Shown here piece by piece: positions 1 to 23,758 of a stretch of 64,000 nt of DNA (position 1 is the stretch's first letter; every line of letters starts with the position of its first letter). The notes below the pieces were generated by a model that saw only the letters and a program-made list of their open reading frames with translations, did not search any database and had not been told where the DNA came from. A program made the translations under genes and the position numbers. Source of the DNA: Streptomyces sp. NBC_01571 (GTDB lineage Bacteria; Actinomycetota; Actinomycetes; Streptomycetales; Streptomycetaceae); contig NZ_JAPEPZ010000001.1 of NCBI RefSeq assembly GCF_026339875.1, positions 4,712,001-4,776,000 on the forward strand, written 5' to 3'.

Positions 1-56
1 CCGCGGTCCTTGGACTCCTTCGTGCGGAGTCGGCGCGGGCAGTAGCGGCACTTCAT
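1..56 (-). CDS. Zinc-ribbon protein, 5' end only (DUF6011-like)
   Basis: Only the first 19 codons are in the window; the rest lies past the left edge. The visible start is MKCRYCPRR followed by LRTKESKDRG, with a CxxC pair. This resembles the small DUF6011-type zinc ribbons common in actinophage early regions, where a second CxxC pair would follow. The ATG overlaps the stop of the upstream gene in an ATGA, so it belongs to the same translationally coupled minus-strand operon. No function can be assigned beyond probable metal binding. Confidence 0.5.
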   Translation of the reverse strand, partial: MKCRYCPRRLRTKESKDR

Positions 57-349
57 CGGCGCTTCCTTCGGCGGTGCTCGGCGAGGCTGGTCACGCCCAC
101 GGGGAGGGCGAGCTGCTCGACGCGGGCGGGACAGGTAGCGATGTGCGGCATGTGGAGTCGCTCCCAGCCGCAGAGGGGGAGCTCGGCGGAGGGGCGGCGG
201 GACCGGAGGGCGCCGGTTCCGTCGCGCCAGATGGCGGCGTTGCCCTTGTCGTCCGGGGTGGGGTCGACGGCCAGGCGCTTCCCGGCCTCCGTGATGGTCC
301 ACAGGACGGGGCGCGAGCAGTCGTGGCACGCGGCGGGATGTCTGGTCAT
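53..349 (-). CDS. Small Cys-containing phage-type hypothetical protein (98 aa)
   Basis: A 98-aa protein of no recognised function. It opens with MTRHPAACHDCSRPVLW, giving a CxxC pair, and carries further cysteines around residues 62 and 73, so a structural zinc site is plausible. The C-terminus is strongly basic (EHRRRKRR). The start is fixed by an ATGA overlap with the upstream gene at 346-349, and its stop overlaps the next start at 53-56. It is part of an unbroken chain of tiny early genes downstream of the replication genes of element A. Confidence 0.6.
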   Translation of the reverse strand: MTRHPAACHDCSRPVLWTITEAGKRLAVDPTPDDKGNAAIWRDGTGALRSRRPSAELPLCGWERLHMPHIATCPARVEQLALPVGVTSLAEHRRRKRR

Positions 350-633
350 GGCCTGGTGGTGGGGATGGAGGCCGCGGTGATGCGGGCCTGGTGGGCGTCG
401 GGGGTGATGGTGCAGGGATGGCCGGCGGGGGCCTGGCAGATACGCTCGGGGCACTGGGTTGACATGACCCTGACCCAGTCGGTTTGCCGGGCGCCGTGCA
501 CGTCGCGGCGGCGGTCGGCAGTGCCGCGCTGGTTCGAGCACAGGTCGCCGACGCGCGCACGGCACCAGGTGCACTGCACTCCCATCGCGGCGAACCTGTA
601 CGGCTTGCGCTGACGGGGTACGGGGGTCGTCAT
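346..633 (-). CDS. Double zinc-finger small phage protein (95 aa)
   Basis: A 95-aa protein with two similar cysteine/histidine units. The first is CTWCRARVGDLCSNQ with a downstream RRDVHGAR; the second is CPERICQAPAGHPC followed by DAHQARI. The pattern C-x(2,3)-C-x(6)-C...H is the short zinc-finger type repeatedly seen in actinophage proteins and probably binds nucleic acid, though the target is unknown. A similar finger occurs at the C-terminal end of the upstream protein. The start is set by the ATGA overlap at 630-633. Confidence 0.6.
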   Translation of the reverse strand: MTTPVPRQRKPYRFAAMGVQCTWCRARVGDLCSNQRGTADRRRDVHGARQTDWVRVMSTQCPERICQAPAGHPCTITPDAHQARITAASIPTTRP

Positions 634-1328
634 GACGGGTCGACCTCCTGCTCCTGGCCCTGCTCCTTGAGCGCGAGGGCGGCGGCGGCCGCGGCCTTGA
701 TCCGGGCCTCGTCGGCGTCGGGGTCGAGCAGCGGGAGGCCGGCGGCCGCGCGCTGCATGTCCTGCAACCGGATCGGGTGCGGGTCCTTGAGGCGGCGCTT
801 CCCGGCGGTGCAGCTGCTGCCGGGGGCGGCTCCGCACCGTCGGCAGGCGCGGCCGCGGGGGTCCTTCGTGGCGTCGCGGCCGGTGGGCATCTTGCCGAGG
901 GCGGCCCGGGCAGCGGCTGCGCGGCCCTCGTACGGGCCATGATCGGCACCTGGGGGCAGCGCGAGGCGCTCAGCGGTACCGAGAGACCCGGCGATGCTGC
1001 TGGGGCCCGTGAGGCCGTCTCCAGCGGCTCGGATGATCTCCCGGAGGGCGGCGGCGGACTCCGCGCCGGTGTGGGTCGGGTCGCCATCGACGACGATGTT
1101 CGCCAGCTCGATGCGCTCGGCACGACGGGCCTTGACCTCGGCGATGATCTCGGCCGGGGCGACGAACGCCTGCCGCGAGGCGACGGTGACGACCGCGGCG
1201 CGGGCCTCGTCGAGGCTGTACGGGCCTAGGACATCGCCCCAGACGTCGGGAGTGTGCTCGTTGAAGCGCTGCTGAGGACACAGCTGGTGGACGTAGGCGC
1301 AGAGGGCGGTCGCCTCCTGGCTGTTCAT
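630..1328 (-). CDS. Helicase-loader-like phage replication protein with C-terminal zinc finger
   Basis: A 232-aa protein. The N-terminal ~70 residues (VWGDVLGPYSLDEARAAV, then AFVAPAEIIAEVKARR) have the layout of the phage G39P-type helicase loader/inhibitor domain: a short helical domain with a tryptophan, an acidic-aromatic helix and a PAEI segment. The C-terminal half carries CRRCGAAPGSSC followed by HPIR, a short zinc finger. It directly follows the initiator-like gene (ATGA overlap at 1325-1328) and has a strong AGGAGG ribosome site. That position, after an origin-binding protein, matches lambda P or SPP1 gene 39. The loader role is inferred from domain layout and context, not demonstrated. 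Confidence 0.55.
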   Translation of the reverse strand: MNSQEATALCAYVHQLCPQQRFNEHTPDVWGDVLGPYSLDEARAAVVTVASRQAFVAPAEIIAEVKARRAERIELANIVVDGDPTHTGAESAAALREIIRAAGDGLTGPSSIAGSLGTAERLALPPGADHGPYEGRAAAARAALGKMPTGRDATKDPRGRACRRCGAAPGSSCTAGKRRLKDPHPIRLQDMQRAAAGLPLLDPDADEARIKAAAAAALALKEQGQEQEVDPS

Positions 1329-2392
1329 GTGGTGCCTCCTTCTGCGGCTGCTGCGGCTGCTTCGTCTCGGGCCTTCGCGCGTTCCATGGCGCGGTCGAAG
1401 AGGTCCGTGCCGGTGGCGGGGTCGTAGCCGGGGCCGGCGGACTGGCGAGACGTGGCCGAGCTGGTGGTGTTCATGACCTCGTTCACGACGCTGGGGAGCG
1501 TCGAGGGGTGGAGGCCCTTGCGCATCCAGTGCGCGATGCCACGGCGGATCCAGTCGGGGTCGATCCGGTCCTCGTCGAGGAGGACCTTGATCTCTTTCGA
1601 GAGCTGGCCGATCACGCGGGACGGCGGGCGCTCGGTGCAGCGCTCCAGCCACTCGCCGACGATCGTCTGCGCGGTGACCGGTGCTTCGCCGTCTTCGGGC
1701 GGGGCGTCGTCGACGGGCTCTCCATCGAGGACCTCGTCTGGTGCGTCTCCTGTGTCACCGGGGGTCGGTGTGGCGGCGGCACCGGAGGCGTCGGCGGGAC
1801 CCGGGAACGGTTCCTGGTGGTTCTGCTGGTGGTTAATGACGGTTAGGGGGGCACTGAGTGCGTGACATTCGGACGCAGAGTGCGTGACGTCACGCATTTC
1901 GAGTGCGTGACTCACGGACTCTGAGTGCGTGACGCCCCCCTCTGTCACGTCGTCTGAGTGCGTGACAGTCACGGACTCTCCGTGCGTGACAGTCACGGAC
2001 TCTGACTGCGTGACACGCTTCTGCCGTGCCCGCCGCTGACGCTCCGCAGCCTGCCGCTTCGCGTCCTCGGCCTCGGCCTCCAGCTCCGCCCAGTCGAACT
2101 CCGGACGCTTCAGGTGCATCTGGAGCTTCCACACCGTCCGTCCCTGACGCGTCCCCGTCCGCTTGATGAGCCCGCCGGCCTCCAGGCGCCGGAACGCCCG
2201 CTGGACGGTGCGCTCGTCGTAACCGGTCCGGAACTGGATCCGCAGGACGGACGGGTGGCTGTTGGAGCCGTCAGGGCGCGCGTGCTCGCCGAGGACCTGG
2301 AGGACATGCCGCGCCGTGCTGTCGGGGCGGTCTTTGTCCGTCCGCAGCATCGGGGCGTCGTCCATCGCCCAGGTCACAGCCTCGGTGCTCAC
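1325..2392 (-). CDS. Lambda-O-like replication initiator with winged-helix N-terminus
   Basis: A 355-aa protein. Residues ~15-95 form a winged-helix domain (TARHVLQVLGEHA, then DERTVQRAFRRLEAGGLIKR), followed by a basic, Gln/Arg-rich stretch. Residues ~126-179 are a Ser/Thr/Val/His-rich linker encoded by the iteron array, then an acidic Ala/Pro linker. A helical C-terminal domain (~235-320, VGEWLERC to LPSVVNEVMN) is the sort that contacts a helicase loader. Initiator N-domain, iterons inside the gene, and a loader-like gene immediately downstream copy the lambda O-P arrangement. It is preceded by a terminator-like hairpin (2423-2462). Initiator function is inferred. Confidence 0.6.
   Translation of the reverse strand: MSTEAVTWAMDDAPMLRTDKDRPDSTARHVLQVLGEHARPDGSNSHPSVLRIQFRTGYDERTVQRAFRRLEAGGLIKRTGTRQGRTVWKLQMHLKRPEFDWAELEAEAEDAKRQAAERQRRARQKRVTQSESVTVTHGESVTVTHSDDVTEGGVTHSESVSHALEMRDVTHSASECHALSAPLTVINHQQNHQEPFPGPADASGAAATPTPGDTGDAPDEVLDGEPVDDAPPEDGEAPVTAQTIVGEWLERCTERPPSRVIGQLSKEIKVLLDEDRIDPDWIRRGIAHWMRKGLHPSTLPSVVNEVMNTTSSATSRQSAGPGYDPATGTDLFDRAMERAKARDEAAAAAAEGGTT
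1856..2014. repeat. Seven-copy iteron array inside the initiator gene; candidate replication origin
   Basis: Seven direct copies of GAGTGCGTGAC or one-base variants start at 1856, 1878, 1901, 1923, 1956, 1980 and 2004. Spacing is 22-24 nt, with one 33-nt step, so the copies lie on about the same face of the helix. Copy two is part of a perfect 16-bp palindrome, TGCGTGACGTCACGCA (1881-1896). A second motif, TCACGGACTCT, repeats at 1912, 1969 and 1993. The relatively AT-rich stretch at about 1820-1847 lies on one side. This is the classic layout of initiator-binding iterons placed within the initiator coding region. Confidence 0.6.
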
Positions 2393-2422
2393 GCGCTCCT
2401 CTTCCGGTCGGTGTGGGGGTGG

Positions 2423-2462
2423 CCGGTGGCCCGGCGGCCGGTGTCATCCGCCGGGCCACCGG
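2423..2462 (-). terminator. Strong hairpin between whiB-like gene and initiator gene
   Basis: Perfect inverted repeat of 15 bp (arms 2423-2437 and 2448-2462, loop of 10 nt) of almost pure GC, in the 73-nt gap between the WhiB-like stop (2466) and the initiator start (2392). No U-tract follows, as is common for Streptomyces terminators. It may attenuate read-through into the replication genes. Confidence 0.45.
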
Positions 2463-2465
2463 TGC

Positions 2466-2894
2466 TCATCGGGAGGTGAGGACCTTGGTGGAGCCCGTGC
2501 GCCGGTACTCCCGGTGGGTCAGGGCGTGCGCGTCCAGGCATGCCTGGTCGGCCGGTTCGCCCTTGCGCTGATGCCGCTGGTAGGCGCCCTCCGTGCCGCA
2601 CGGCGACAGCTTCCGGCCGGGCCCCGGAGCCTTCTTCGGCTTCTTCACGGCGGGCTGGCCGGTCTTCCGCTGTCGCTCGACCTCCCAGCGCTGCGCCCCA
2701 GTGAGGGCAGCGAAAATCCCCTCCCGCTGCGTCTTCGCCACGTGCGACTCACGAGCCAGAACGGCGTCGAGGCACTCCTCCTGGACCGGGCAGGCTCGAC
2801 AGGTCCGCCTGGCCAGGGACAGAGAGTCCTTCTTGAAGAAGACGTTGGGGTCCACGTCTCGACACGCGGCGGAGAGTTCCCACTCCCGTTCCAT
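2466..2894 (-). CDS. WhiB-family iron-sulfur regulator carried by element A
   Basis: A 142-aa protein with the four WhiB cysteines at residues 11, 32, 35 and 41 (CxxC then x5-C), which in the family ligate a 4Fe-4S cluster and allow binding to sigma region 4. The usual GVWGG turn is represented by GIFAALTGAQRW, and a Lys-rich stretch (KKPKKAPGPGRK) that could touch DNA follows. The C-terminal ~45 residues add CGTEGAYQRHQRKGEP and a later Cys, a motif also found at the end of the neighbouring gene at 2951. The start was chosen by GGGAG before the ATG. Phage-borne WhiB proteins are known to interfere with host WhiB regulation; that role here is inferred. Confidence 0.8.
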   Translation of the reverse strand: MEREWELSAACRDVDPNVFFKKDSLSLARRTCRACPVQEECLDAVLARESHVAKTQREGIFAALTGAQRWEVERQRKTGQPAVKKPKKAPGPGRKLSPCGTEGAYQRHQRKGEPADQACLDAHALTHREYRRTGSTKVLTSR

Positions 2895-2950
2895 AGATCG
2901 CTCCCTCGTTCTTGATGAATCGCGTTGGTGTGACGGGCCGTTGACACCCG

Positions 2951-3487
2951 TCACGCGGGGAATTCCGGCGCGCCGCTGTAGGTCCCGTGCTTCCGGAAGT
3001 GACGGTCCGCGGCGTTCCGCGCGAGCCTGCACGGCTCGCAGCAGGGCTCTTTGCGGCGTCGATGCCGTTGCGCGCCCCGGTAAGTGCCACACCGGATCGG
3101 TGGCTTCGCCGGCAGCTGCTTGGCCATCTCCTGGCACCACTCGGCCGCGGTACGGGCCCGTTGCAATGCCTCGCACAGGGGTGTGTCATCGGTCGGGAAC
3201 CAGGCCCGGAGGGTCCGATGGTCCATCCCGGCTCGGCGTGCGATCACCGAGCGGTCCATGCCGCGTTGGAGCATGATGTCCGCCGCATAGGCGGCCTCGG
3301 GCGGCGTGAGCTCCCCGGCCTGGTGCTCGCCGTTGACCGCGAGCTCCACGGCGATCAGGTCGAGGCAGACGAGTCCCTCGGCGGTCGCCATGAACACCGT
3401 GGGCGCGGTCAGGGCGGTGACAGAGATCCACTCGCGCTGGCTAGGCACCAGGACGGCGCGCTCACGGTCAGTGTGGAGGGCGCTCAC
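2951..3487 (-). CDS. HTH protein with C-terminal CGT zinc-like module
   Basis: A 178-aa protein. The middle contains a helix-turn-helix (RSVIARRAGMDHRTLRAWF), so it probably binds DNA. The C-terminal ~50 residues hold CGTYRGAQRHRRRKEPCCEPC, a small Cys/His/Arg module that resembles the tail of the WhiB-like protein next door. GTG start chosen because it overlaps the helicase stop in a GTGA (3484-3487), giving translational coupling. Function unknown; either an early regulator or part of the recombination-replication set. Confidence 0.6.
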   Translation of the reverse strand: MSALHTDRERAVLVPSQREWISVTALTAPTVFMATAEGLVCLDLIAVELAVNGEHQAGELTPPEAAYAADIMLQRGMDRSVIARRAGMDHRTLRAWFPTDDTPLCEALQRARTAAEWCQEMAKQLPAKPPIRCGTYRGAQRHRRRKEPCCEPCRLARNAADRHFRKHGTYSGAPEFPA

Positions 3488-4953
3488 GCTTTCACCGCCG
3501 TCACGGTCTGGACCCAGGCGAGGGCGGTGTCGTCGAGCTGCTCGCGGGCCCGGGTCACGGCGACGTATGCGAGGCGGGCCTCTTCGCGGGGCAGGATCAC
3601 CAGGCCGGTCTTCTGGTCGGCCTTCGGCGCCCGGAAGTCGGCGTGGATGCGGACGGCCGGCCACTCGCGGCCTTTGGCCTTGTGCGCGGTCGAGACGACG
3701 AGCTCGGCCTGCTGCTCGGAGACCAGGCCGTCCGCGGCCGCGACGATCCGGCCGGGCCCGTGCTCATCGATGAGCTTGACGAGCACTTCGAGGGAGCCGT
3801 CCTCTTCGGCTGCGTACTGCCGGACGTCGTCCCAGGACGCGAAGCCCATCAGCTCCGGGTGGTCGGTCGGCTTGCCGCCCTGGAGGGCCTCGGCCGCCCA
3901 GGCGAGCTGCTTGATCGCAGAGCCTCCACCGACCAGCGCGACCTTCCGCCCGGCCCCCAGGCCCTCCATGACGATCCCCATCGCGCCCGCGTTGGTGCGG
4001 CAGAGGATCGCGTCCGGGGTGTCGAGCGGGCCCACCGCGGACTCGGCGGCGTCCCAGCCGGTGAGCCGGAGGGGCGCGTCGATCAGCCGCAGCCACACGT
4101 TCGCGCGGGCGGCGATGGCCGGCCCGAACCGGAAACTCTGCGACAGCGTGAGCTCGGGGCAGCCGAGCTCACGGACAAAACCCTCGAGCGCGTCGTTGGC
4201 GCCGCGCCAGCTGTAGATCTGCTGCGCGGAGTCGCCGACCGCGATGCGCTGCGCGTGCTCCTGGGCGAGCAGGACCGCGCTCAGCACGTCGTTGGTGTCC
4301 TGGGCTTCGTCGAGCAGGACCACGTCCGTGGGGATCGTAGGCTTCGAGAGGGCCCACATCTTCAGGTAGTGGTCGTGGTTCAGGTTCAGCACGGAGTCAT
4401 CGCGCTGGAGATCCTCCCAGGCGGCTCGTGCCACCGGCAGGACCAGCTTTACGACCTCGCCGCGGGCCTTCCGCAGCCCGTCGTACTGCGGGATGTGCTT
4501 CTGGACCAGGTCCTCGTCGGCGCTGTGGCAGTAGCGCTCGATCGTGTCGAGGGCCATCCGCATGATGATCTTCGAGGTCATCGCCTTGAGACCACCGAGG
4601 TCTGTGAGGATGCTCGGCGTCGAGCCGATGATGCCGAGGATCGCGCGGACGTCGAGGGCCTGCGCGGCCTGGTGCGCGGTCTGGCGCGGACGCTGGAGCC
4701 GGGCGCCGTACTTCGGGTCGAAGGCGAGGCCGTGGCCCGTCTTCGCCGTGACGTTCGATGGGAACGACCTGCGGGCGTCCGCCGCGATGGTCTTGTTGTA
4801 CGCCACATAGGTCATGCGCCTACGCGCGTCAGCCTGGGCAATCATGCGCAGCGTCGCGGACTTGCCGCAGCCCGCGCCGGCCTGGAGGACCTGGTCCAGC
4901 CCGTCGCCGTACGAGTCGATCGCGTCGCGCTGTTCTGGGGTTGGGGTCACCAC
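3484..4953 (-). CDS. UvrD/Rep-type superfamily 1 DNA helicase
   Basis: A 489-aa ATP-dependent helicase. Walker A is AGAGCGKSATL (residues 25-35), Walker B is VVLLDEAQDTN with the DEAQ box, motif III is around GDSAQQIYSWRGA, and the C-terminal motifs are STAHKAKGREWPAV and YVAVTRAREQL. It is shorter than host UvrD (about 700-800 aa), typical of phage versions that lack the 2B insert. It likely acts in recombination or replication restart together with the Sak4-like ATPase upstream. Start GTG at 4953 follows a perfect AAAGGAGGT ribosome site at good spacing. The stop is coupled to the next gene by a GTGA overlap. Confidence 0.9.
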   Translation of the reverse strand: MVTPTPEQRDAIDSYGDGLDQVLQAGAGCGKSATLRMIAQADARRRMTYVAYNKTIAADARRSFPSNVTAKTGHGLAFDPKYGARLQRPRQTAHQAAQALDVRAILGIIGSTPSILTDLGGLKAMTSKIIMRMALDTIERYCHSADEDLVQKHIPQYDGLRKARGEVVKLVLPVARAAWEDLQRDDSVLNLNHDHYLKMWALSKPTIPTDVVLLDEAQDTNDVLSAVLLAQEHAQRIAVGDSAQQIYSWRGANDALEGFVRELGCPELTLSQSFRFGPAIAARANVWLRLIDAPLRLTGWDAAESAVGPLDTPDAILCRTNAGAMGIVMEGLGAGRKVALVGGGSAIKQLAWAAEALQGGKPTDHPELMGFASWDDVRQYAAEEDGSLEVLVKLIDEHGPGRIVAAADGLVSEQQAELVVSTAHKAKGREWPAVRIHADFRAPKADQKTGLVILPREEARLAYVAVTRAREQLDDTALAWVQTVTAVKA

Positions 4954-4979
4954 TGTGGTGCACCTCCTTTCTGGGGGCC

Positions 4980-5011
4980 GGGACCGCCCCGCACGGGGTC
5001 GGGGCGGTCCC
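4980..5011 (-). terminator. GC hairpin between Sak4-like and helicase genes
   Basis: An 11-bp perfect stem (4980-4990 with 5001-5011) and a 10-nt loop in the 70-nt gap between two minus-strand genes. It sits upstream of the helicase ribosome site and has no U-tract, so it could attenuate transcription or stabilise the mRNA end. Confidence 0.35.
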
Positions 5012-5024
5012 GCTCAGTGGCGAA

Positions 5025-6455
5025 TCAGACGGACTGCGCGGCGGCGACGTACAGGGCGTCACCAGCGGCCCGGGCGGCGTCGTCCTCCAGGCCCTGGACC
5101 ATCGCGGCGAACTCGTCAGCCGGGTTCTCTCGGTCGCCCCACGTCGTGAGCGTGTCGAGGAGGGTCTGCGCCTCGCCCTTGGTCAGCTCGTTCGCGGACG
5201 AGAGCGGACGGCCGACGATCAGCGCGGTCGCCCGGAGACGCTGCTCGCGCAGGTCCTTGTGGCCGAGCCCGACCTTGGTGAAGCAGGCGTGCATCATCCG
5301 CATCTGCGGGGGGCTGACGGGCTCCGGCGCCCGGTCCTGGTCGGTGGCAGTCGGCCGGACGAACTTCGATGCGACGGCCCGCAATTGCTCGGCCGTACCC
5401 CAGATCGCGTCCGTGCCGTACTCGGCTTTGAAGCGCGCGCTGGCCATGTCGAAGTCCAGACCAGCGGCCTTGGCCGCGTTGTACATCTCCTCGCGGGCCC
5501 TGGCCGTGTCGGCGGCGATCTCGGCATCCGACGTCGGTCCCGGCGGAGTGGTGGCGCCCGTCGTGACGGGCTTGACGGCCTGCCCGTACTCCTTGATGAC
5601 GTCCCCGAGCTTCGCGGGCTCCCCGGTCTTCGGGTGCAACAGGTCGGCCATGAGGAGACGCCGGTTCTTGGCCTGGCCGTACAGCTCCAGCGCCCGGTCA
5701 TACGTCAGACCGTCGGCGACCAGCTCGTCCACGATGACCTGGACGGGGTCGACGCCCTGGCCGAGCTGCTCCAGGATCGCCTCGGCGAATGCCTCGCCGG
5801 GGTGGTGGACAGAGGCGCCGTCGAGGGCCGTGTACCGGGTCTTGGTGACGGTGCCGGTGCCCGCGATCATGTCGACCAGGACGTCGACTTCGTACTCGGC
5901 ACCCTCACGCTGGACCGTCTTCACCCCGACCTTGGTGACCTTCTTCCCCTCCATCTCGTAGTCGTTCTTCGTCCGCATGGTCACGATGACGTGTCCGGGG
6001 AAGGTCAGCAGGGCGTCGAGCATCTCCTGCTCCAGCTCGTTCACCGGGCCCCAGGCAGTGAACTTCCCACCGCTCCCAGCCTTCTTGGCCTCCTCGTCGA
6101 CGCGTGCGAGGAGCCCGCCCCTCCCTGCCCAGAAGTGCGACCACGAGTCGATGATCAGGACCGCGAGCCGGGCCTCCTCGGCGGCCTTCACCGCGGCGAT
6201 CAGGTTCTCCGGGGAGCAGAACGCCATCGGCAGGTGAGCGAACTCGTGAGCCTCGATGTCCGGGCGGCCTGGGACCGGGGCGTACTTGAGAGCTGAGCCC
6301 CGCTCGGTGTCGACGACCCCGATGGCGCCGCCAGCCGCGAGGGCTTCGGCCATGCGGAGGGCCGTCTTGGTCTTGCCGGAGCCGCCGGGCCCCTGGATGC
6401 CGATGCGGGCCTTGGCGGTCTCGCGGGTCGCCGGGGCGAAGGTGAAGGTCGTCAT
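5025..6455 (-). CDS. RecA-fold ATPase of Sak4-like phage recombinase type
   Basis: A 476-aa ATP-binding protein. Walker A is GPGGSGKTKT (residues 22-31), a DTERGS motif follows, Walker B is LIIDSWSHFW, and a later sensor-like stretch reads HVIVTMRTKNDY. This is the minimal RecA-fold core of phage single-strand annealing proteins of the Sak4 type. The C-terminal ~200 residues are helical and end in a segment resembling those of phage recombination ATPases (PQMRMMHACFTKVGLG). It heads a likely recombination module with the UvrD-like helicase. The assignment to Sak4 rests on motif order, since such ATPases are diverse. Confidence 0.65.
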   Translation of the reverse strand: MTTFTFAPATRETAKARIGIQGPGGSGKTKTALRMAEALAAGGAIGVVDTERGSALKYAPVPGRPDIEAHEFAHLPMAFCSPENLIAAVKAAEEARLAVLIIDSWSHFWAGRGGLLARVDEEAKKAGSGGKFTAWGPVNELEQEMLDALLTFPGHVIVTMRTKNDYEMEGKKVTKVGVKTVQREGAEYEVDVLVDMIAGTGTVTKTRYTALDGASVHHPGEAFAEAILEQLGQGVDPVQVIVDELVADGLTYDRALELYGQAKNRRLLMADLLHPKTGEPAKLGDVIKEYGQAVKPVTTGATTPPGPTSDAEIAADTARAREEMYNAAKAAGLDFDMASARFKAEYGTDAIWGTAEQLRAVASKFVRPTATDQDRAPEPVSPPQMRMMHACFTKVGLGHKDLREQRLRATALIVGRPLSSANELTKGEAQTLLDTLTTWGDRENPADEFAAMVQGLEDDAARAAGDALYVAAAQSV

Positions 6456-6751
6456 GGGGTGCTCCGGGGGTCGCGCTGGGCGGGCGTGGTGAAACTGCGG
6501 GGGTTGCTGGCGAACTCGCGGACGAGGGCGAGGGTCCGCATCGCGATGCCGTACTTCTGCCGCTTGCGCCGGAACTCGGCGTTCGTGTCGGTGTCGGCCC
6601 GGCGGTACTGGCCGTCGAGGTCCTTCTCCACCGCGTCCGCCAGCTCCTGGCCGTACTCGCGGCGGAGGTCGGCGAGCAGCTGCACGACCTCGGCACGCGG
6701 GCGGGGCCGGCCGTCGGTGAGCGCGTCGTAGACCTTGCCGTACGCGTTCAC
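6452..6751 (-). CDS. Small charged helical protein (99 aa), unknown
   Basis: A 99-aa protein rich in Arg, Glu and Asp, predicted largely helical from its heptad-like pattern (VVQLLADLRREYGQELADAV). No catalytic motif is visible. GTG start chosen for the GTGA overlap with the upstream 54-aa gene; its stop overlaps the ATPase start by 4 nt. It probably belongs to the recombination module because of this coupling, but no function is recognised. Confidence 0.6.
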   Translation of the reverse strand: MNAYGKVYDALTDGRPRPRAEVVQLLADLRREYGQELADAVEKDLDGQYRRADTDTNAEFRRKRQKYGIAMRTLALVREFASNPRSFTTPAQRDPRSTP

Positions 6752-6912
6752 TGGACCTCGACCTCCCGGCCAGCAGGGGTCTCGGGCGGCCGAAGCATGC
6801 CTGCGGACTCCAGGGCCTCGGCTGCCTGCGTGGCCAGGTCGTATGGGGGCCCGGCCAGCCACGCGGCCTCGATCGTCTTCTTCGCCTGTGCGGCGACGCT
6901 GGAGAGGCTCAT
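6748..6912 (-). CDS. 54-aa hypothetical protein in the early operon
   Basis: A short reading frame of 54 codons (MSLSSVAAQAKKTIEAAW...). It starts in an ATGA overlap with the DUF2786 gene stop and ends in a GTGA overlap with the next gene. The perfect double coupling and GC-rich third positions support translation. It is Ala/Glu-rich and probably helical; no family recognised. Confidence 0.5.
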   Translation of the reverse strand: MSLSSVAAQAKKTIEAAWLAGPPYDLATQAAEALESAGMLRPPETPAGREVEVQ

Positions 6913-7637
6913 CGGCGGCCGCCCAGCGGCTTCCGTCCGCCAGACAGTCCCGTCTGGCCGATGTTCGCGGTGCGGCCCGCGGCCTGTCCGGCCCCGTAGC
7001 CGCTTCCCCGGTAGGTCGTGCGGCGCCTCCTGAGCTTCCCGAACTCAGCGAAGACGCGCTGTTCGACCAGGGCGCTGCGGTCCGCCAGGACGAGTTCCGT
7101 ACTGCGACCCGCGGGCTGGCTTTGCGGAGCACTCGCCGCGACGGCCCGGGCCTCTGCTTCCTTGATCCTTCGTACGACCTCTTGGCGGAAGCCGAGGATC
7201 CACGAGCGGCGGTAGCTACGGGCGTTGTCGCCCCACGGCACCTCGACTCGGTTCAGTTGCTGTGCCATCTGGAGGAGCAGCGAGGTGTACAGCAACTCGG
7301 CACGCTCCAGGTCCGACTGGAAGCCGAACATGTGCACTCGGTGCAGCGAGCCCTTGTCGCGGAGCACGGCTTGTCCCCGGAGTGCATCGACGATCCCGGA
7401 GACCAGGCTCTGCTTCTCCCGCGCCCACGGGTTGCTCATGGTGATGATGCGGTCGGTGAGCGCGTCGGAGTCGGATACCGAGTCGGCGAGGAGGGCACGT
7501 TCGATGCCGTACTTCGCCATGAGCTCGGTGGCCTTTGCCGTGAACGCCTCAGCTTCTGCCGTCGTGGACGCAGGGTCCTCGGCCTTGGCCAGGAGAGCGC
7601 GCACCTTCGCGAGCAATGATTCGGTGGGTTGCGTCAT
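6909..7637 (-). CDS. DUF2786 domain protein
   Basis: A 242-aa protein. The first ~45 residues (LLAKVRALLAKAEDPASTTAEAEAFTAKATELMAKYGI) are the DUF2786 signature, a short helical domain of unknown function frequent in actinophage and actinobacterial proteins. The middle contains a basic-aromatic region and WGDNARSYRRSWILGFRQEV, followed by a Ser/Gly/Arg-rich tail. Its start overlaps the stop of the upstream gene by 4 nt (ATGA). The function of DUF2786 is unknown; its repeated place beside phage recombination genes suggests a DNA-related task. Confidence 0.8.
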   Translation of the reverse strand: MTQPTESLLAKVRALLAKAEDPASTTAEAEAFTAKATELMAKYGIERALLADSVSDSDALTDRIITMSNPWAREKQSLVSGIVDALRGQAVLRDKGSLHRVHMFGFQSDLERAELLYTSLLLQMAQQLNRVEVPWGDNARSYRRSWILGFRQEVVRRIKEAEARAVAASAPQSQPAGRSTELVLADRSALVEQRVFAEFGKLRRRRTTYRGSGYGAGQAAGRTANIGQTGLSGGRKPLGGRR

Positions 7638-8461
7638 GCCTGCTCACCGCCCGTCACGGTCGTCATGACGGGCGTGACCAGCTGTGACGGGGAGTCCGTG
7701 ACGGGCGTCAGACCACCCGCCTGACGGGTCAGGTCCGACAGCCTGGACAGCTCGGGCCGGCCGTCCTGCGACAGCAGAGGCATGCCGTCCTCGGCCCGCG
7801 CGCCCTCGAAAAACCAGGTGCCGCCGTTCACGTCCTGCTGCGGCAGGGCCAGGTCGTACACGAGCCCTTCCAGCTCGTACGGCGCCTTCGCGATCCGCAT
7901 CGCGTGCGCCCGGGCCTCCGGCAGGTCGTACGCGACCACCGACACTCGGACCCCGTCACGATGACCGTCGCCACCGACCACGTACGGGAGGGGACGCTCC
8001 TTGTCGTGCGTGATCCCGAAGTACGTGCGCCACTCGCCCCATTGACGCTGGTCGACGATGTGTAGCGACACCAGGAGGCGGTCGCCGTCCACCTGGACGC
8101 CCTGGAAGGCGGGGTGCGCGCCGACGTGGAGCCGGATGGTGTCCGCGGCCCGCCGGGCGCGCTCGCATGCCTCGTCCCAGGCGCGGGCCTGCTGCTCGAG
8201 GTCGGTCTCCTGCGCCTGGCGCCTCGGCAGCTCGGGGCGCTCAGGCTGCTCGGCGTCCGCCGGGTACTCGGGCTGGCCCTGCGGCGCGCGTTCCCAGCCG
8301 CCGTCCGCCGCGCGGTGGAGGACGGTGCCGGCCGGGCGCTCCGGGTCGACCAGGAGCCGGACGTCGTCGAGGGCCTGGGCGACGGTGGCGGCCGGATCGC
8401 TGCTGCTCATGGCCATGGCCTCGCGGACGATCCTGATGGCCTCGGGGAGGTTCTTGTTCAT
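7634..8461 (-). CDS. Hypothetical phage protein (275 aa)
   Basis: A 275-aa protein without a recognised domain. The N-terminal ~70 residues are helical and acidic (MNKNLPEAIRIVREAMAMS), residues ~75-105 are a Gln/Glu/Arg linker, and the central part (~110-220) looks like an alpha/beta domain (RLLVSLHIVDQRQWGEWRTYF). The 3' end of the gene is rich in a repeated TGACGGG word, encoding PVTDSPSQLVTPVMTTVTGG. The start is fixed by an ATGA overlap with the sigma factor stop. Confidence 0.6.
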   Translation of the reverse strand: MNKNLPEAIRIVREAMAMSSSDPAATVAQALDDVRLLVDPERPAGTVLHRAADGGWERAPQGQPEYPADAEQPERPELPRRQAQETDLEQQARAWDEACERARRAADTIRLHVGAHPAFQGVQVDGDRLLVSLHIVDQRQWGEWRTYFGITHDKERPLPYVVGGDGHRDGVRVSVVAYDLPEARAHAMRIAKAPYELEGLVYDLALPQQDVNGGTWFFEGARAEDGMPLLSQDGRPELSRLSDLTRQAGGLTPVTDSPSQLVTPVMTTVTGGEQA

Positions 8462-9069
8462 GCCGCCGCCCCATCGGTGCTCAGCACGCGCCCCATGCTC
8501 CGCAGCGCGCGCCACTGGAGCGTCTTGACCGCTCCGACGTTGAGGTCCATGACCGCGGCGGTCTCCGGGATCGTGCAGTCCTCCAGGAAGCGGAGCCGCA
8601 CGCACTCCTGCTGGCGCTCCGTCAGCCCCTCCATGCCGGCCTTGACCGTTGCGGTCGCCTCGACGGCCTCCAGCTCACGAAACGCGCTGGACTCCGCTGA
8701 GTCGAGGAGCTCGTCAGCCTCGAAGTCGACGAACGAGCTCAGGGGGACTTCCAGCCTGGTGCGGCTCGACTTGCAGTGGTCCGTGTGCAGGTTCCGAGCG
8801 ATGGTCACCAGCCAGCCAGCGAATCCGCCGGTGCGCGGCCGCTCGTCGAACGTCTCGATCCGGCGCAGGGCGCGGACGAACGTCTCCTGCGTCAGGTCCT
8901 CCGCGAGCTCGCGATTCCGGATGCGGAAGTAGAGGAAGCGATACACGACGCGCTGGTACTCGTTGTAGAGGGTGGCGAAGGCGTCGCGGTCGCCGGTCCG
9001 GGCCCGGGCGAGGAGCTCGGGTTCCGCTCCTCTCGGCGGGGCGATCATGGCGTTAGCCTGTGTAGACAC
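8458..9069 (-). CDS. ECF-like sigma-70 family factor on element A
   Basis: A 203-aa sigma factor. Region 2 spans about residues 30-100 (AEDLTQETFVRALRRI, then GWLVTIARNLHTDHCK) and region 4 about 145-200 (GLTERQQECVRLRF, then AVKTLQWRALRSM); there is no region 1 or 3, as in ECF sigmas. No anti-sigma gene is adjacent. GTG start at 9069 was chosen because AGGAG lies 7 nt before it. Placed near the start of the early leftward operon, it could direct expression of later element genes. That regulatory role is inferred; sigma identity is clear. Confidence 0.85.
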   Translation of the reverse strand: MSTQANAMIAPPRGAEPELLARARTGDRDAFATLYNEYQRVVYRFLYFRIRNRELAEDLTQETFVRALRRIETFDERPRTGGFAGWLVTIARNLHTDHCKSSRTRLEVPLSSFVDFEADELLDSAESSAFRELEAVEATATVKAGMEGLTERQQECVRLRFLEDCTIPETAAVMDLNVGAVKTLQWRALRSMGRVLSTDGAAA

Positions 9070-9722: not shown

Positions 9723-9757
9723 TCGCGTGAGGAAACGGGGCTCTCAAGGGGCGCGTG

Positions 9758-9839
9758 ATGCAACCACGTGCGGACAATGCGCTCAATGTGCGCAGGTCAA
9801 TGCGCCGGAAGTGCTCTTTCTGCATGCAACCATGTGCGG
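9758..9839. repeat. Paired direct repeats upstream of the repressor gene
   Basis: Two 16-nt copies reading ATGCAACCACGTGCGG (9758-9773) and ATGCAACCATGTGCGG (9824-9839) flank a cluster of CAATGCGC/CAATGTGCGC words (9775-9805). The second copy ends 13 nt before the repressor ATG. The arrangement suggests tandem binding sites controlling the rightward repressor transcript. Confidence 0.4.
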
Positions 9840-9852
9840 CATCATGGGTGTC

Positions 9853-10365
9853 ATGGACCAGGACTTCGCACGGCTCGGCGAGCAGCTCAAAGCAGCTCGC
9901 GAACAGCGACGGCCGCGGATCTCGCAGGCGTACGTGGCCGCCGAGCTTGGAGTCGGCCGCAGCACCATCTACAAGATGGAGAGCGGCGACGGCGCCAGGG
10001 TCACATCAACGACCCTGCTCGCATACGCGCGCCTGCTCGGATGGACCGACGACTCCGTCAGCCGCGTTCTCGCCGGCGGGGACCCAGTCATCGCCACCTC
10101 CGAAACGGAAGCAGCAGCCCAACACGCCATCCCGGGCGTGCAGCTCTCCCCCGCCGTCGAGTACGAACTGCGGTCCGGCAAGGTCCTCGACAGCCAGGTC
10201 TTCAACCTCGGACCAGATGACGACGACGGGCAGATCATCGTCGTCTTGCAGGGCAAGAAGGACGCCACCCCGGAGGAAGCGGAACGCGTCGCGGCCCGGT
10301 ACCGCCGTGCCCGCCGGCACCTCCAGGGCCTCGCTTCTGACCTCGATGGGGTTGCAGAGTCGTAA
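9853..10365 (+). CDS. XRE-family repressor (CI-like role)
   Basis: A 170-aa protein. Residues ~5-65 form an XRE helix-turn-helix (ISQAYVAAELGVGRSTIYKM), followed by an acidic region (GPDDDDGQIIVV) and a basic helical tail (ERVAARYRRARRHLQGL). The ATG at 9853 was chosen because the HTH begins just after it; there is no clear ribosome site, so a leaderless or weakly initiated message is likely. It diverges from the Cro-like gene and leads a rightward set with the integrase, so it is the probable lysogeny repressor. Confidence 0.65.
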   Translation: MDQDFARLGEQLKAAREQRRPRISQAYVAAELGVGRSTIYKMESGDGARVTSTTLLAYARLLGWTDDSVSRVLAGGDPVIATSETEAAAQHAIPGVQLSPAVEYELRSGKVLDSQVFNLGPDDDDGQIIVVLQGKKDATPEEAERVAARYRRARRHLQGLASDLDGVAES

Positions 10366-10919: not shown

Positions 10920-12296
10920 ATGGCTCACGCGGAGAAGGTCTACAAAGTCCGCAACGGCGCGAAGACGAAGCAGTTCACCTGGCGTGCGCGCTACCAGCGG
11001 CCAGACGGGAGCACCGGCAGCGAGCCCGGGTTCCCGACGAAGGTCCTGGCCGAGGAGTGGGGAGCGAAGCAAGAGGCGCAGATCAAAGAGGGGACGTGGA
11101 TCGACCCCGACAAGTACCGTTCCCCCTTCGGCCAGTTCGCGCGGAAGTACATGGCGGAGAGGCCGAAGCGCGGCCGGACCGTGTCGACGCGGTGGGACCT
11201 GCTGGACACCTACATCCTGCCGAAGTGGGACCACGCCCCGCTGATCTCGCTCAACTGGTTCGACGTCGATTCCTGGCAGATGCTGCTCCCCTGCGACGAC
11301 GTCACCAAGGGCCACTGCGTCTCGCTGATGTCGACGATCCTCACGGGGGCCGTGGACGCCAGGTGGCTGCCGATCAACCCCGTGAAGGGTCGGCAGCGGA
11401 CGAAGGCCGTCGTGCACACTCCCGCGGCGCCGGCCGACGAGGACGAGGAGAAGGTGTTCACCGCGGAGGCGGTGCTCCGCGTCGCTGAGCGGCTCGGGCC
11501 CGCGAAGGGCCTGCACGTGATCACGACCGCGTGGACCGGGATCAACTGGGGCGAGGGGCTGGGCATCCAGCGCGAGCACTTCCGGGTGCGTCGGCAGCAG
11601 TGGGGCAAGTCCCACTGGGAGTGCTTCGTCCTGCGCATCGCCCAGGAGGTCGCCGAGTACGAGGAGCGTGACGAGCACGGGAAGAAGAAGGGGACCGTGC
11701 TCAAGCTGGAGCCGACGAAGAACGAGTGGCGGACCCGCGACCTGGACCTGCCCCCGTTCCTCGCCCGGCTGTGGCACTACCACCTGGCGGACTGGCCGTA
11801 CGACTGGATGCTGTGCACGCCGAGCGGGAAGTGGTGGCGCCGCAACAACTGGGGCGCGAAGCAGCTGCGGCCCGCGGCGGACGGACGACCCGAGCGCAAG
11901 AAGCGGCAGGGCTGCTCGTACCGTGCGGAGTGGGAGCCGATCGCGCCGGGCATGACGATGCGCGGACTGCGACATACCCACGACTCGTGGCAGGACCAGA
12001 TCGGCGTCCGGGCCGCGCTCTCCTTCGAGCAGGCCGGCCACAAGCGCCCGGGGATCAAGCGGGTCTACCAGCACCCGACGCCGGCGATGCGGCAGGCACG
12101 GCTCGACGGGCTGGAGGAGATCTTCTGGGAAGCGATGGGGAACCTCGGGTGGTCCTCGCTGTGGGGTCGGGTCAGCCTGGTGAAGCCTCCGGCGGCCCCT
12201 GCCGAAGATGATCTCCTAAATGCCCCCCAAACGATCTCCATGGAGGACTACCGGCGGGCGCGGGCTGGATATAAGAGCAGTTCAGAGGCCATGTGA
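10920..12296 (+). CDS. int: Tyrosine site-specific integrase of element A
   Basis: A 458-aa tyrosine recombinase: N-terminal SAM-like arm domain, core-binding helices (~70-150) and a catalytic domain (~190-400). Visible catalytic elements are GLRHTH (about residue 349), the AGHKRPG histidine and the nucleophile region RVYQHPT (about 381). Two positions are odd: the first catalytic arginine box reads TGINWGE instead of the usual TGLRWGE, and the HxLRH box reads RGLRHTH. The gene stops 31 nt before the tRNA-Arg att core, as expected for an integrase in its prophage. It should recombine at tRNA-Arg(CCU), but the missing first Arg leaves activity open. Confidence 0.85.
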   Translation: MAHAEKVYKVRNGAKTKQFTWRARYQRPDGSTGSEPGFPTKVLAEEWGAKQEAQIKEGTWIDPDKYRSPFGQFARKYMAERPKRGRTVSTRWDLLDTYILPKWDHAPLISLNWFDVDSWQMLLPCDDVTKGHCVSLMSTILTGAVDARWLPINPVKGRQRTKAVVHTPAAPADEDEEKVFTAEAVLRVAERLGPAKGLHVITTAWTGINWGEGLGIQREHFRVRRQQWGKSHWECFVLRIAQEVAEYEERDEHGKKKGTVLKLEPTKNEWRTRDLDLPPFLARLWHYHLADWPYDWMLCTPSGKWWRRNNWGAKQLRPAADGRPERKKRQGCSYRAEWEPIAPGMTMRGLRHTHDSWQDQIGVRAALSFEQAGHKRPGIKRVYQHPTPAMRQARLDGLEEIFWEAMGNLGWSSLWGRVSLVKPPAAPAEDDLLNAPQTISMEDYRRARAGYKSSSEAM

Positions 12297-12446: not shown

Positions 12447-12998
12447 TCACCGACGACCGGGGCGCTTTCTGAGCAGCCGGTCCATGTGGCTCATGGCTTC
12501 GCGCTGAGTGTCCTGCACGACGTGCGTGTACACGTCCATGGTGATGCTGACCTGCGAGTGCCCAAGGATCTCCATCACGACGCGGGGCGCGACTCCGGCC
12601 GCCGTGAGCAGGGTGGCGGTGCCGTGCCGAGCGTCATGCAGCCGGATCACGCGAAGGCCGGCGGACTCGGCGACTCGGGTGAAGGAGCGGTAGACGTTCC
12701 GCGGCTCGACCTGGCGCCCGGTGCGGGTCGTGAAAACGTACCCCGACTCGTGCCACCGCAGGCCCGTCAGCGCGACCGGGGTACCCATCGCCAGGTCCTC
12801 GGAGACGCCCGGCGCCGGAACGGTGAGCTTGAGGATCTCCACCTCGTCCGGCGTGGAGAACATGACCTCCACCGTCATCAGCGTGACGCCGTCCTTGTCG
12901 AGGGCGATCTCACCGGTACGGCGGTCCTTGATCTTCGGCTGCGGAGCCTTGGCGACCATCACGGTCGCGTTCGTGGTGTCGACGGGAATCTGACGCAC
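12447..12998 (-). pseudogene. Deletion fusion: element protein N-terminus joined to integrase C-terminus
   Basis: An open 183-aa frame made of two unrelated parts. Residues 1 to ~80 (MRQIPVDTTNATVMVAKAPQ through MGTPVALTGL) match a small conserved protein usually encoded near the replication-transfer operon of pSAM2-type elements. Residues ~85-183 are the C-terminal half of a tyrosine integrase: GYVFTTRTGRQVEPRNVYRS, the HDARHG box, LGHSQVSITMDVYTH with the nucleophile Tyr. The join is at about 12,745-12,765. An internal deletion that removed integrase N-terminus, xis, rep and transfer genes explains it. Start GTG at 12998 has AGGAG upstream. It cannot be an active integrase, but the fused protein is probably made. 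Confidence 0.75.
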
Positions 12999-13917: not shown

Positions 13918-13947
13918 AGTCCTTCTCTTCCTCCTATGCTCCTGCAC

Positions 13948-14403
13948 ATGAGTAACAGTGCCCAGGAAGGCGAGTCAACGCCGCTCCACTCCGTGTCCGT
14001 AGCCGGAGTGGTCATCGGCGAGGACGGCCGACTGCTAGCGATCCGCCGCGCGGACAACGGCACTTGGGAACTTCCCGGCGGCGTACTCGAACTCGACGAG
14101 ACTCCCGAGGCCGGCGTCGCCCGCGAGGTCCTGGAAGAGACGGGCATCCACGTTGAGGTGGACCATCTCACCGGGGTCTACAAGAACACCACCAGGGGCA
14201 TCGTCGCCCTGGTCTTCCGTTGCAAGCCGTCTGGCGGCACCGAGCGCACGTCCAGCGAATCGACAGCGGTCGACTGGCTCACGCCCGAAGAGGTCAGCGA
14301 GCGCATGGCCGAGGTCTTCGCGATCCGACTCCTGGACGCCTTGGACGGCAACGGGCCTCACGTGCGGAGCCATGACGGCAAGAGCCTGATCGCAGCGCGG
14401 TAG
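13948..14403 (+). CDS. Nudix hydrolase (pSAM2 Nud-like)
   Basis: A 151-aa Nudix protein. The box runs through GGVLELDETPEAGVAREV then LEETGI (residues ~43-66), with all G, E, R and EE positions of GX5EX7REUXEEXGU. It would hydrolyse a nucleoside-diphosphate-linked substrate; in pSAM2 the nud gene sits beside korSA and pra and takes part in a conjugation-linked signal that keeps the element from re-entering. Diverges from the GntR gene and shares its control region. ATG at 13948 is preferred over 13936. The enzyme looks intact although its element is gutted. Confidence 0.85.
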   Translation: MSNSAQEGESTPLHSVSVAGVVIGEDGRLLAIRRADNGTWELPGGVLELDETPEAGVAREVLEETGIHVEVDHLTGVYKNTTRGIVALVFRCKPSGGTERTSSESTAVDWLTPEEVSERMAEVFAIRLLDALDGNGPHVRSHDGKSLIAAR

Positions 14404-22277: not shown

Positions 22278-23758
22278 GGGTCTTCGAAGTTAGGCGGGGT
22301 TGAGGTGTCCGCGGGCTCGGCGGGTGGTGACGCAGCGTGTGCGTAGGCGCTGGCTGTCGGCATTGCGGAAGCCGAATGCGTTGCGGGCGACGAGCTTGAT
22401 GACGCGGTTGATGCCTTCGCTCTTGGCGTTGCTGTGGCCGGTGTCGATGAACCCGGCGATCTCGGGCCACCAGCGGTCGACGGTGGTGGCGAGGGTGCAG
22501 GCTTCGGGGATGTCTGAGTCCGCGCACCAGGTGAGGAACTTCCATCGGGCGTGGCCTACTTCTTCGCGGTCGGCGCCGGTTCGGGCCAGGGCGAGGAGGG
22601 TGCGCAGGCTCTCCTTGGCGATCCAGGCGGTCAGCAGCGTCTGCCCGATCGGCCCCTCGTCCAGCAGCGCGTTCCACATCGTGGCGAACTGCTGGTCGGT
22701 GAGGTCCTCACGGTTGCGCAGCAGCCGTCGACGGGCCTTCCATTCCGGGTCGGTGGCGCGTCCACGCCGGCCCCGGATCTCGGCGGTGGTGCGACGCCGT
22801 ACAGCAGAGAGCATCTTGTTCGCGAGCTGGACGATGTGGAAGTGGTCAACGACCACGATGGCATCGGGCAGGCCGGTGCGGATCGCGGCCCGGTAGGTGG
22901 CTGACATGTCGATGGCGACGTAGCGGATGTTCTTTCTCCACTCCAAAGGGGTGGTGGACAGCCAGGCCAGGACGTCGGCGGCGGCACGGCCCTCGACCTG
23001 CCCGAGCAGGCCACCGGCCCCGAGCGCGTCGACGAACCCGGTGTGCCACCTCTCGCGCACCAGGTGCCACTTGCCGGTGTCCGCATCCTGTTCCCAGCGC
23101 GGCCGTCCGCGCCGGGTCTCGTCGACGCCCAGCACCTCCACTTCCGGCAGCGGCGCCTCGGTGACCTCGCGGGCGGCCGCGCGGAAGGCGTCCATCACCG
23201 TCGGCCAGGACACGTGCAGGTCACGGGCGGCCTGGACCACGGTGGAAGCAGCATCCCGCACCCGCAGGGCGGCAGCCCGGCGCAGCCGGCCGGTGATCCG
23301 GGCCCCGGCCGGTATCTGCCGAACCTGCTCGGTGAACGACTTCCGCTCGCATCCGGACTCCCGGCAATACCAACGCCGCTTGCACCACACGAACTCCAAT
23401 CCCCGTTCTCCGTAAGGAAGATCACGTGGACGGGTGTACACGAGGCCCTTCACATGTGACGCGAACACGCCGCAGGAGGGACAGGCCCGGGCGGCTTCGT
23501 CCGCTGTGGTCAGATGCACCCGCCGGGTGCCGTCCATCAGCCGCTCAACGCTCTCGACGGCAAGGCCGTCCAAGTCGAGCAGCACCGCCGTATCGTTGTC
23601 CAAGCCCGTGGTTTCTGGTGATCAAACTGCCGGAGAACAGTCATGATCGCCGATGACCACGGACGCCCTGCACCCACGAGCCGACCACCCCCACGCTTAC
23701 CCTCCGTGAGAACCCCGGAGGACGAAGGCTCACCCACCCCGCCTAACTTCGAAGACCC
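22278..23758 (-). mobile_element. ISL3-family insertion sequence, complete, 1481 bp
   Basis: Perfect 23-bp terminal inverted repeats (22278-22300 and 23736-23758), beginning GGGTCTTCGAAG at the left. An 8-bp target duplication, GCGTATCC, lies at 22270-22277 and 23759-23766. One transposase gene fills it. Intact ends, intact duplication and intact transposase point to a recent, possibly still active insertion. The 8-bp duplication fits ISL3. Confidence 0.95.
22290..23603 (-). CDS. tnp: ISL3-family transposase
   Basis: A 437-aa DDE transposase. An N-terminal zinc finger (ARACPSCGVFASHVKG, with a second pair in KRRWYCRESGCERKSF), helix-turn-helix (ARDLHVSWPTVMDAF) and DDE domain with VLGVDETRRGR and YVAIDMSATYRAAI are in the order expected of ISL3 proteins. 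The C-terminal EGINRVIKLVARNAFGFRN is also typical. Start ATG at 23603; the stop lies inside the region next to the left inverted repeat. It appears full length. Confidence 0.95.
   Translation of the reverse strand: MDNDTAVLLDLDGLAVESVERLMDGTRRVHLTTADEAARACPSCGVFASHVKGLVYTRPRDLPYGERGLEFVWCKRRWYCRESGCERKSFTEQVRQIPAGARITGRLRRAAALRVRDAASTVVQAARDLHVSWPTVMDAFRAAAREVTEAPLPEVEVLGVDETRRGRPRWEQDADTGKWHLVRERWHTGFVDALGAGGLLGQVEGRAAADVLAWLSTTPLEWRKNIRYVAIDMSATYRAAIRTGLPDAIVVVDHFHIVQLANKMLSAVRRRTTAEIRGRRGRATDPEWKARRRLLRNREDLTDQQFATMWNALLDEGPIGQTLLTAWIAKESLRTLLALARTGADREEVGHARWKFLTWCADSDIPEACTLATTVDRWWPEIAGFIDTGHSNAKSEGINRVIKLVARNAFGFRNADSQRLRTRCVTTRRARGHLNPA

Follow-up and report, generated by a model that had tools for sequence, protein, structure and literature searches.

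The minus-strand ORF at 1325-2392 of the window (the whole 64-kb stretch of DNA analysed here) is best explained as the replication initiator gene of a prophage that carries a replication origin inside its own coding sequence, in the style of phages lambda and SPP1. A probability of about 0.87 is given to this reading, in which both binding and replication are predicted. Written into the DNA that encodes the initiator's own disordered linker are seven palindromic iterons, most of them spaced by some two turns of the helix, to which dimers of the N-terminal winged-helix domain would bind. The resulting nucleoprotein complex would open an adjoining AT-richer, G-poor tract of AACC boxes, and the helical C-terminal domain would recruit a G39P-like loader, encoded by the overlapping gene downstream, to deliver the host DnaB helicase. 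The computed features behind this proposal are the repeats, their conservation in several reading frames, their association with the N-domain, the asymmetric tract that flanks them, and the association of the C-domain with the downstream gene.

The ORF encodes 355 aa from a GTG start. The gene, its domains and the gene that overlaps its end are arranged as follows:

1325..2392, minus strand: O-like replication initiator gene (PHROG phrog_8064, phrog_1032 and phrog_391; Pfam HTH_36)
2009..2392, minus strand: N-terminal winged-helix domain with trailing helix, aa 1-128, the putative iteron binder (AlphaFold, winged-helix matches)
1682..2002, minus strand: linker, predicted to be disordered, aa 131-237, holding most of the predicted origin (AF2 block means)
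1454..1681, minus strand: C-terminal helical domain, aa 238-313, the putative partner of the loader (AF2, phrog_8064 at 236-314, downstream-gene linkage)
630..1328, minus strand: candidate helicase loader gene, sharing 4 nt with the end of the initiator ORF (remotely G39P-like N-terminus and Phage_zn_bind_8 zinc finger)

Comparison of the 355-aa protein with the PHROG replication-initiation families returned phrog_8064 (E=4.6e-35, aa 236-314) and phrog_1032 (1.6e-15). A further match, to phrog_391 ('replication initiation O-like', E=1.9e-8), relates the protein to O-like families. These matches to known families contradict the original prediction, made from the DNA letters, that the sequence was unrelated. 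The named close relatives of the protein came from Streptomyces. The gene sits within the early-gene block of a prophage in a host genome of 11.5 Mb. To the left of the window, the same prophage contains portal, terminase, major head, minor head and tape-measure genes, and to the right of the initiator lie a repressor-like gene (9727-10365) and an integrase (10920-12296). No tRNA was found within the 64-kb window. The initiator is adjoined by a WhiB-like regulator (2466-2894, minus strand), and the initiator-like genes of phages TurkishDelight, P1312 and Laroye likewise have WhiB genes nearby. A second, short integrase-like ORF (12447-12998, minus strand; 183 aa, phrog_1), possibly a remnant, adjoins the integrase, and a Nudix hydrolase-like gene (13936-14403, plus strand) lies toward the integrase end of the prophage. 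Elsewhere in the window are a transposase-like gene (22290-23603, minus strand; phrog_5749) and, inside large ORFs, tandem arrays at 38020-38078 and 40798-40905 with 18- and 24-bp units.

The structure of the initiator was predicted with AlphaFold from an alignment of 72 sequences (the window protein plus 71), drawn from at least 120 homologous proteins listed. Block means of pLDDT were 89-98 over aa 1-120 (the winged helix), 75 over aa 121-130, 38-51 (very low confidence) over the linker at aa 131-230, and 92-97 over the helical C-domain at aa 241-310. In this model, the iterons map to the end of the N-terminal helix and to the linker. A winged-helix N-terminus had been proposed from the outset, and the model, the Pfam HTH_36 match and winged-helix matches in the PDB support it. 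The PDB matches were generic winged-helix ones, with none at E≤0.001 for the initiator in Foldseek. A phage initiator was absent among the matches listed (50 from the PDB), which excludes nothing.

One 11-bp word occurs seven times inside the initiator gene. Five copies are exact (GAGTGCGTGAC) and two are degenerate; on the gene strand the iteron reads GTCACGCACTC. Word matching located the direct copies and the degenerate inverted copies interspersed among them:

2004..2014, minus strand: iteron 1, GTCACGCAGTC, one mismatch, frame 0
1980..1990, minus strand: iteron 2, GTCACGCACGG, two mismatches, frame 0
1956..1966, minus strand: iteron 3, exact, frame 0
1923..1933, minus strand: iteron 4, exact, frame 0
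1901..1911, minus strand: iteron 5, exact, frame 1, read as SHAL
1878..1888, minus strand: iteron 6, exact, frame 0
1856..1866, minus strand: iteron 7, exact, frame 1, read as CHAL
1992..2002, plus strand: inverted degenerate iteron arm, one mismatch
1968..1978, plus strand: inverted degenerate iteron arm, one mismatch
1911..1921, plus strand: inverted degenerate iteron arm, two mismatches
1889..1899, plus strand: inverted degenerate iteron arm, two mismatches
1881-1896, no strand: perfect 16-bp palindrome TGCGTGACGTCACGCA, formed by iteron 6 abutting an inverted arm

By coordinate, the iterons are spaced 22, 23, 22, 33, 24 and 24 nt apart (24, 24, 33, 22, 23 and 22 in gene order). The seven copies announced in the original prediction are all present, but its spacing of 22-24 nt fails for one gap of 33. 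The offsets modulo 3 are 0,0,0,0,1,0,1, that is, two reading frames are used. The last four iterons alternate between these frames, so that the same DNA word yields VTHS in one frame and SHAL/CHAL in the other.

A chance origin of the repeats was rejected by 20,000 synonymous recodings and by shuffles of the window. The exact word, with five copies in the gene, averaged 0.384 copies in the recodings and never exceeded four. Window-wide, 13 matches with at most one mismatch were found against 2.63 expected, a number reached by none of 100 shuffles. The excess shrinks when the word is loosened to at most two mismatches, the observed seven then being reached by 313 of the 20,000 recodings. When codons were permuted instead, the observed one-mismatch repeat count was often reached by the shuffles, a null that is too weak. 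A search of this genome for the exact word turned up no further cluster.

The inverted arms of the window gene, taken alone, are weakly supported, since their number (four) was reached by 778 of 20,000 recodings. A consensus of 339 sites, taken from genes with at least four sites (those with fewer were excluded), showed moderate information in the right flank of the word, in agreement with an inverted half-site; since the word served to pick these sites, information can be read from the flanks only. The 16-bp palindrome, which had been predicted, occurs once on the plus strand of the window. A 'second triple repeat' had been predicted too, and this can be read in two ways. As TCACGGACTCT, it is indeed present three times (at 1912, 1969 and 1993), the copies being degenerate inverted versions of the iteron; as GGTT/AACC boxes, the copies number four, not three.

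Homologues were gathered from GTDB contigs, IMG/VR and whole genomes. The 141 genes obtained were reduced to 135 by counting the copies of the window gene (L003-L007) once and dropping identical and ≥95% identical genes. Nine of the 135 contain both domains, 68 the N-domain only and 58 the C-domain only. Among the non-redundant type-1 N-domain genes (the truncated L068 being excluded from their counts of iteron copies and AT maxima), 54 of 59 had at least four copies of GTCACGSAC with at most one mismatch, whereas none of the 58 C-only relatives and none of the 17 weak-N genes did. Copies lay in at least two reading frames in 55 of the 59 type-1 genes and in all three in 24, where the word is read, depending on the frame, as VTHS, as RHAL/SHAL/CHAL or as PSRT/SSRT. 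Because the homologues are related, counts among them are not independent. The iteron word is associated with the N-domain across relatives, and its copies were not seen to vary freely among homologues, the outcome that would have refuted the original prediction.

In a search that presupposed no word, the repeats outscored every one of 100 recodings in 51 of the 59 type-1 genes, in 31 of the 58 C-only genes and in eight of the 17 weak-N genes; in 21 of the 58 C-only relatives, the repeat score was reached by two or more of the 100 recodings. The words of the C-only genes, for example CAGTGTCCGG, CAGGAGATGC and GCTAGGTCGG, differ from the window iteron, and several are palindromic by inspection. 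Some C-only relatives (L069, L074, L075, L078 and L085) show a different style of in-gene repeat, with words about 11 or 22 bp apart that occupy all three frames.

Codon choice was compared between the linker (aa 113-206) and the rest of the gene in 65 genes. Dipeptides were used for this since they avoid choosing sites by their DNA. Alanine after histidine was encoded by GCA in 115 of 116 linker cases and in 9 of 86 outside the linker, histidine before alanine by CAC in 116/116 versus 75/86, threonine after valine by ACG in 284/443 versus 16/65, and serine before arginine by TCA in 31/98 versus 1/58. Valine before threonine went in the opposite direction (GTC in 244/443 cases in the linker versus 47/65 elsewhere), perhaps because the inverted arms read GTG, and for arginine after serine codon use was the same in the linker and elsewhere. 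The choice of codons in the linker thus follows the iteron word in four of six dipeptide comparisons. The prediction that the word would be conserved at synonymous sites as well holds for those four comparisons and not for the other two. Together with the retention of the copies among relatives and their spread over frames, the codon choice points to the DNA signal, and not the protein, as what dictates this stretch of the gene, as had been proposed for the linker.

A tract of short boxes adjoins the array on the side of iteron 7:

1809..1844, minus strand: AACC-box tract, boxes at 1809, 1819, 1831 and 1841, candidate unwinding element (box search; type-1 composition)

The four boxes of the window appear as GGTT on the plus strand (AACC on the gene strand). 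In type-1 genes such boxes directly follow the last iteron and are mostly 10-12 bp apart. After exclusion of genes with fewer than four sites, 56 of 58 genes had at least three AACC boxes in the 81 nt that follow the last iteron, and in 57 of 58 the boxes occupied at least two frames. The encoded peptide explains the boxes in part: recoded sequences had a mean of 1.72 against 3.52 observed, and p<0.05 was obtained in only 29 of the 58 genes. Nor do AACC boxes generally follow the arrays in other families (a mean of 0.73 per 100 nt against a background of 0.38, 45 genes), one of which has pyrimidine tracts at that place. The type-1 tract is rich in A/C and poor in G/T, with about 50% A+T versus a gene mean of 32%, so that an AT-richer, strand-asymmetric tract does lie beside the iterons, the AT enrichment being mild. 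In 44 of 59 type-1 genes the AT maximum of the gene falls 0-120 nt beyond the last iteron; a range of 0-150 nt captures it in only 15 of 37 C-only genes. The G-poorest 30-nt window of the gene begins no more than 70 nt beyond the array in 37 of 55 type-1 genes (4.2 expected) and in 22 of 45 other genes (3.3 expected). Genes whose repeat was reached by at least two of 100 recodings were left out of this last test and of the AACC test in other families.

The gene downstream of the initiator is linked to the C-domain. An ORF starting four bases before the end of the initiator was present in 72 of 129 genes, and a downstream ORF was absent from the locus in six of 135. With C-domain membership set at an HMM score over 130 bits, a homologue of the window's downstream gene (>150 bits) followed 25 of 28 genes with this C-domain versus 0 of 101 others (Fisher 1e-23, uncorrected for relatedness). 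It was found in all nine genes that combine the C-domain with the window-type N-domain and in 16 of 19 with other N-domains; the C-domain therefore travels with the downstream gene. Weak homologues (20-150 bits) were detected in six of the 101 genes lacking this C-domain. Three C-domain genes had no strong homologue downstream: L055 is followed by a weak homologue, L069 by a DnaC-like gene and L161 by one that starts like a DnaB helicase. Scanning seven other or distant downstream genes identified two DnaC-like loaders (phrog_50) and one DnaB-like helicase (phrog_19); of the remainder, three matched unknown-function families that the window's downstream gene also matches, and one had no match.

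The original prediction called this neighbour a G39P-like loader, and only a remote likeness was found. A profile built from 25 diverse relatives of the downstream gene (A5) matched the SPP1 G39P structure 1NO1 with E=0.002 over residues 1-52, and phrog_2289 ('helicase loader') gave weak matches in three of the 25. A G39P match was returned neither by a narrower profile (A4), nor by Foldseek with a model of the downstream protein of mean pLDDT 73, nor by Pfam, and the window gene itself had no direct loader match in Pfam or PHROG. The G39P-like N-terminus is followed by the zinc-finger domain Phage_zn_bind_8. The product of 630-1328 is a likely, though not established, helicase loader.

By its anatomy, the system would work like those of lambda and SPP1. 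According to PMC4488673 and PMC7466680, the lambda origin has four 19-bp iterons inside gene O, which are bound by O through its amino-terminal half, and a 49-bp A-T-rich, strand-asymmetric part of ori, also within gene O, adjoins them. For SPP1, PMC6316719 places direct repeats and an AT-rich element (oriL) within initiator gene 38, describes a second origin, oriR, and reports that the helicase loader gp39 is needed for initiation. Compared with lambda O, the window gene likewise has an origin (here predicted) in the initiator gene, an N-terminal part as predicted binder, an adjoining asymmetric tract and matches to O-like PHROG families. It differs in having seven iterons, 22-33 bp apart and in two frames, a tract of about 50% A+T with AACC boxes, and a neighbour gene that matches no family named P-like in Pfam or PHROG. 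With gene 38 and oriL it shares in-gene repeats beside an AT-richer tract and a downstream family that weakly matches gp39 (1NO1, E=0.002); the hosts are different, the candidate loader of the window carries a zinc-finger match, and SPP1 has oriR where this genome has no second exact-word cluster. The lambda O-P layout originally proposed is supported as regards the predicted in-gene origin, with SPP1 gene 38 and gp39 at least as close a model.

Related genes with in-gene repeats were found in three actinobacterial phages. TurkishDelight gp71, annotated as an HTH protein, has the N-domain in common with the window gene, while Thermobifida P1312_087 (a hypothetical protein) and Arthrobacter Laroye gp88 (a transcriptional repressor) have the C-domain. 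No origin was present among the features listed around these initiator-like genes. Among Pseudomonas phages, a few relatives of aa 1-78 carry the annotation replication initiation, replisome organizer or primosomal protein. Among the papers listed, with subscription journals thinly covered, none had a title on origins inside genes of prophages from Streptomyces or other actinobacteria.

The label of Laroye gp88 raises the alternative that the HTH protein is a transcriptional repressor or autoregulator of its operon and the repeats its operators. Winged-helix repressors bind dyads, relatives are annotated as 'transcriptional repressor' or 'helix-turn-helix DNA binding', and an initiator that binds its own gene may repress it as well. 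The sites, however, lie deep inside the gene rather than at a promoter, and a sigma-70 consensus scan, poorly suited to Streptomyces, found no promoter-like site in 1-9000. A repressor role also leaves aside the PHROG 'replication initiation' matches, the C-domain that goes with a loader-like gene, the asymmetric tract adjoining the array, which fits an origin, and the phage relatives of aa 1-78 annotated as replication initiation or replisome organizer proteins; it is considered unlikely.

Iteron-like arrays also act as partition sites, and the array might be a centromere or maintenance site, bound by the protein for the partition of an extrachromosomal prophage. The integrase and structural genes point instead to an integrating phage, and the downstream genes of relatives include helicase loaders and helicases, which makes this role very improbable. 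Least credible of all is a tandem repeat at the protein level (a Ser/Thr/Val linker) with no function in the DNA. The linker is predicted to be disordered and copies spaced 24 and 33 stay in frame, but those spaced 22 and 23 shift it, and the peptides differ while the DNA word stays. A pure protein repeat was rejected on these frame changes and on the codon choice, which follows the word in the four comparisons given above.

Origins inside initiator genes are already known as a kind (lambda O, SPP1 gene 38); the new aspects of an in-gene origin of the type proposed here are its scale, the iterons in several frames and the two-way modular exchange. The odds are about even that actinobacterial phages form a natural combinatorial system, in which N-domains, each paired with iterons of its own, and C-domains, each paired with a helicase-delivery gene of its own, are recombined across an origin-bearing linker. 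There the word would be kept against the reading frame, so that the origin writes the protein, and a short recognition code may exist. The family is wide, its members being mostly named helix-turn-helix or hypothetical protein among the matches listed, and it supplies numerous natural pairs of initiator and origin, the gene itself disclosing the likely cognate word of each. Both initiator-origin co-evolution and the tolerance of a disordered linker for multi-frame DNA function thereby become directly testable.

The fold of the N-domain and its co-occurrence with the iterons point to it as the specificity part of the initiator, with binding itself a prediction. Among 65 N-domains (three genes under 600 nt were excluded), the word was changed in four of the six without Gln64-Arg65 versus three of the 59 with it (Fisher 7e-4), the latter three being L112, L051 and L023. 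A link between residue 65 and word positions 7-8 is suggestive only, with two or three independent changes at most. Arg65 is replaced in three of the 65 N-domains (Asn in L022, Asp in L185, Glu in L214), whose pairwise identity is 58-64%; L214 stands beside L022 in the tree, which limits the independence of the word changes. In these three genes, pyrimidine-C occupied positions 7-8 in 6/6, 6/7 and 6/8 copies, respectively (18/21), whereas in the 62 genes with Arg65 it did so in 14 of 389 copies and was the commonest form in none.
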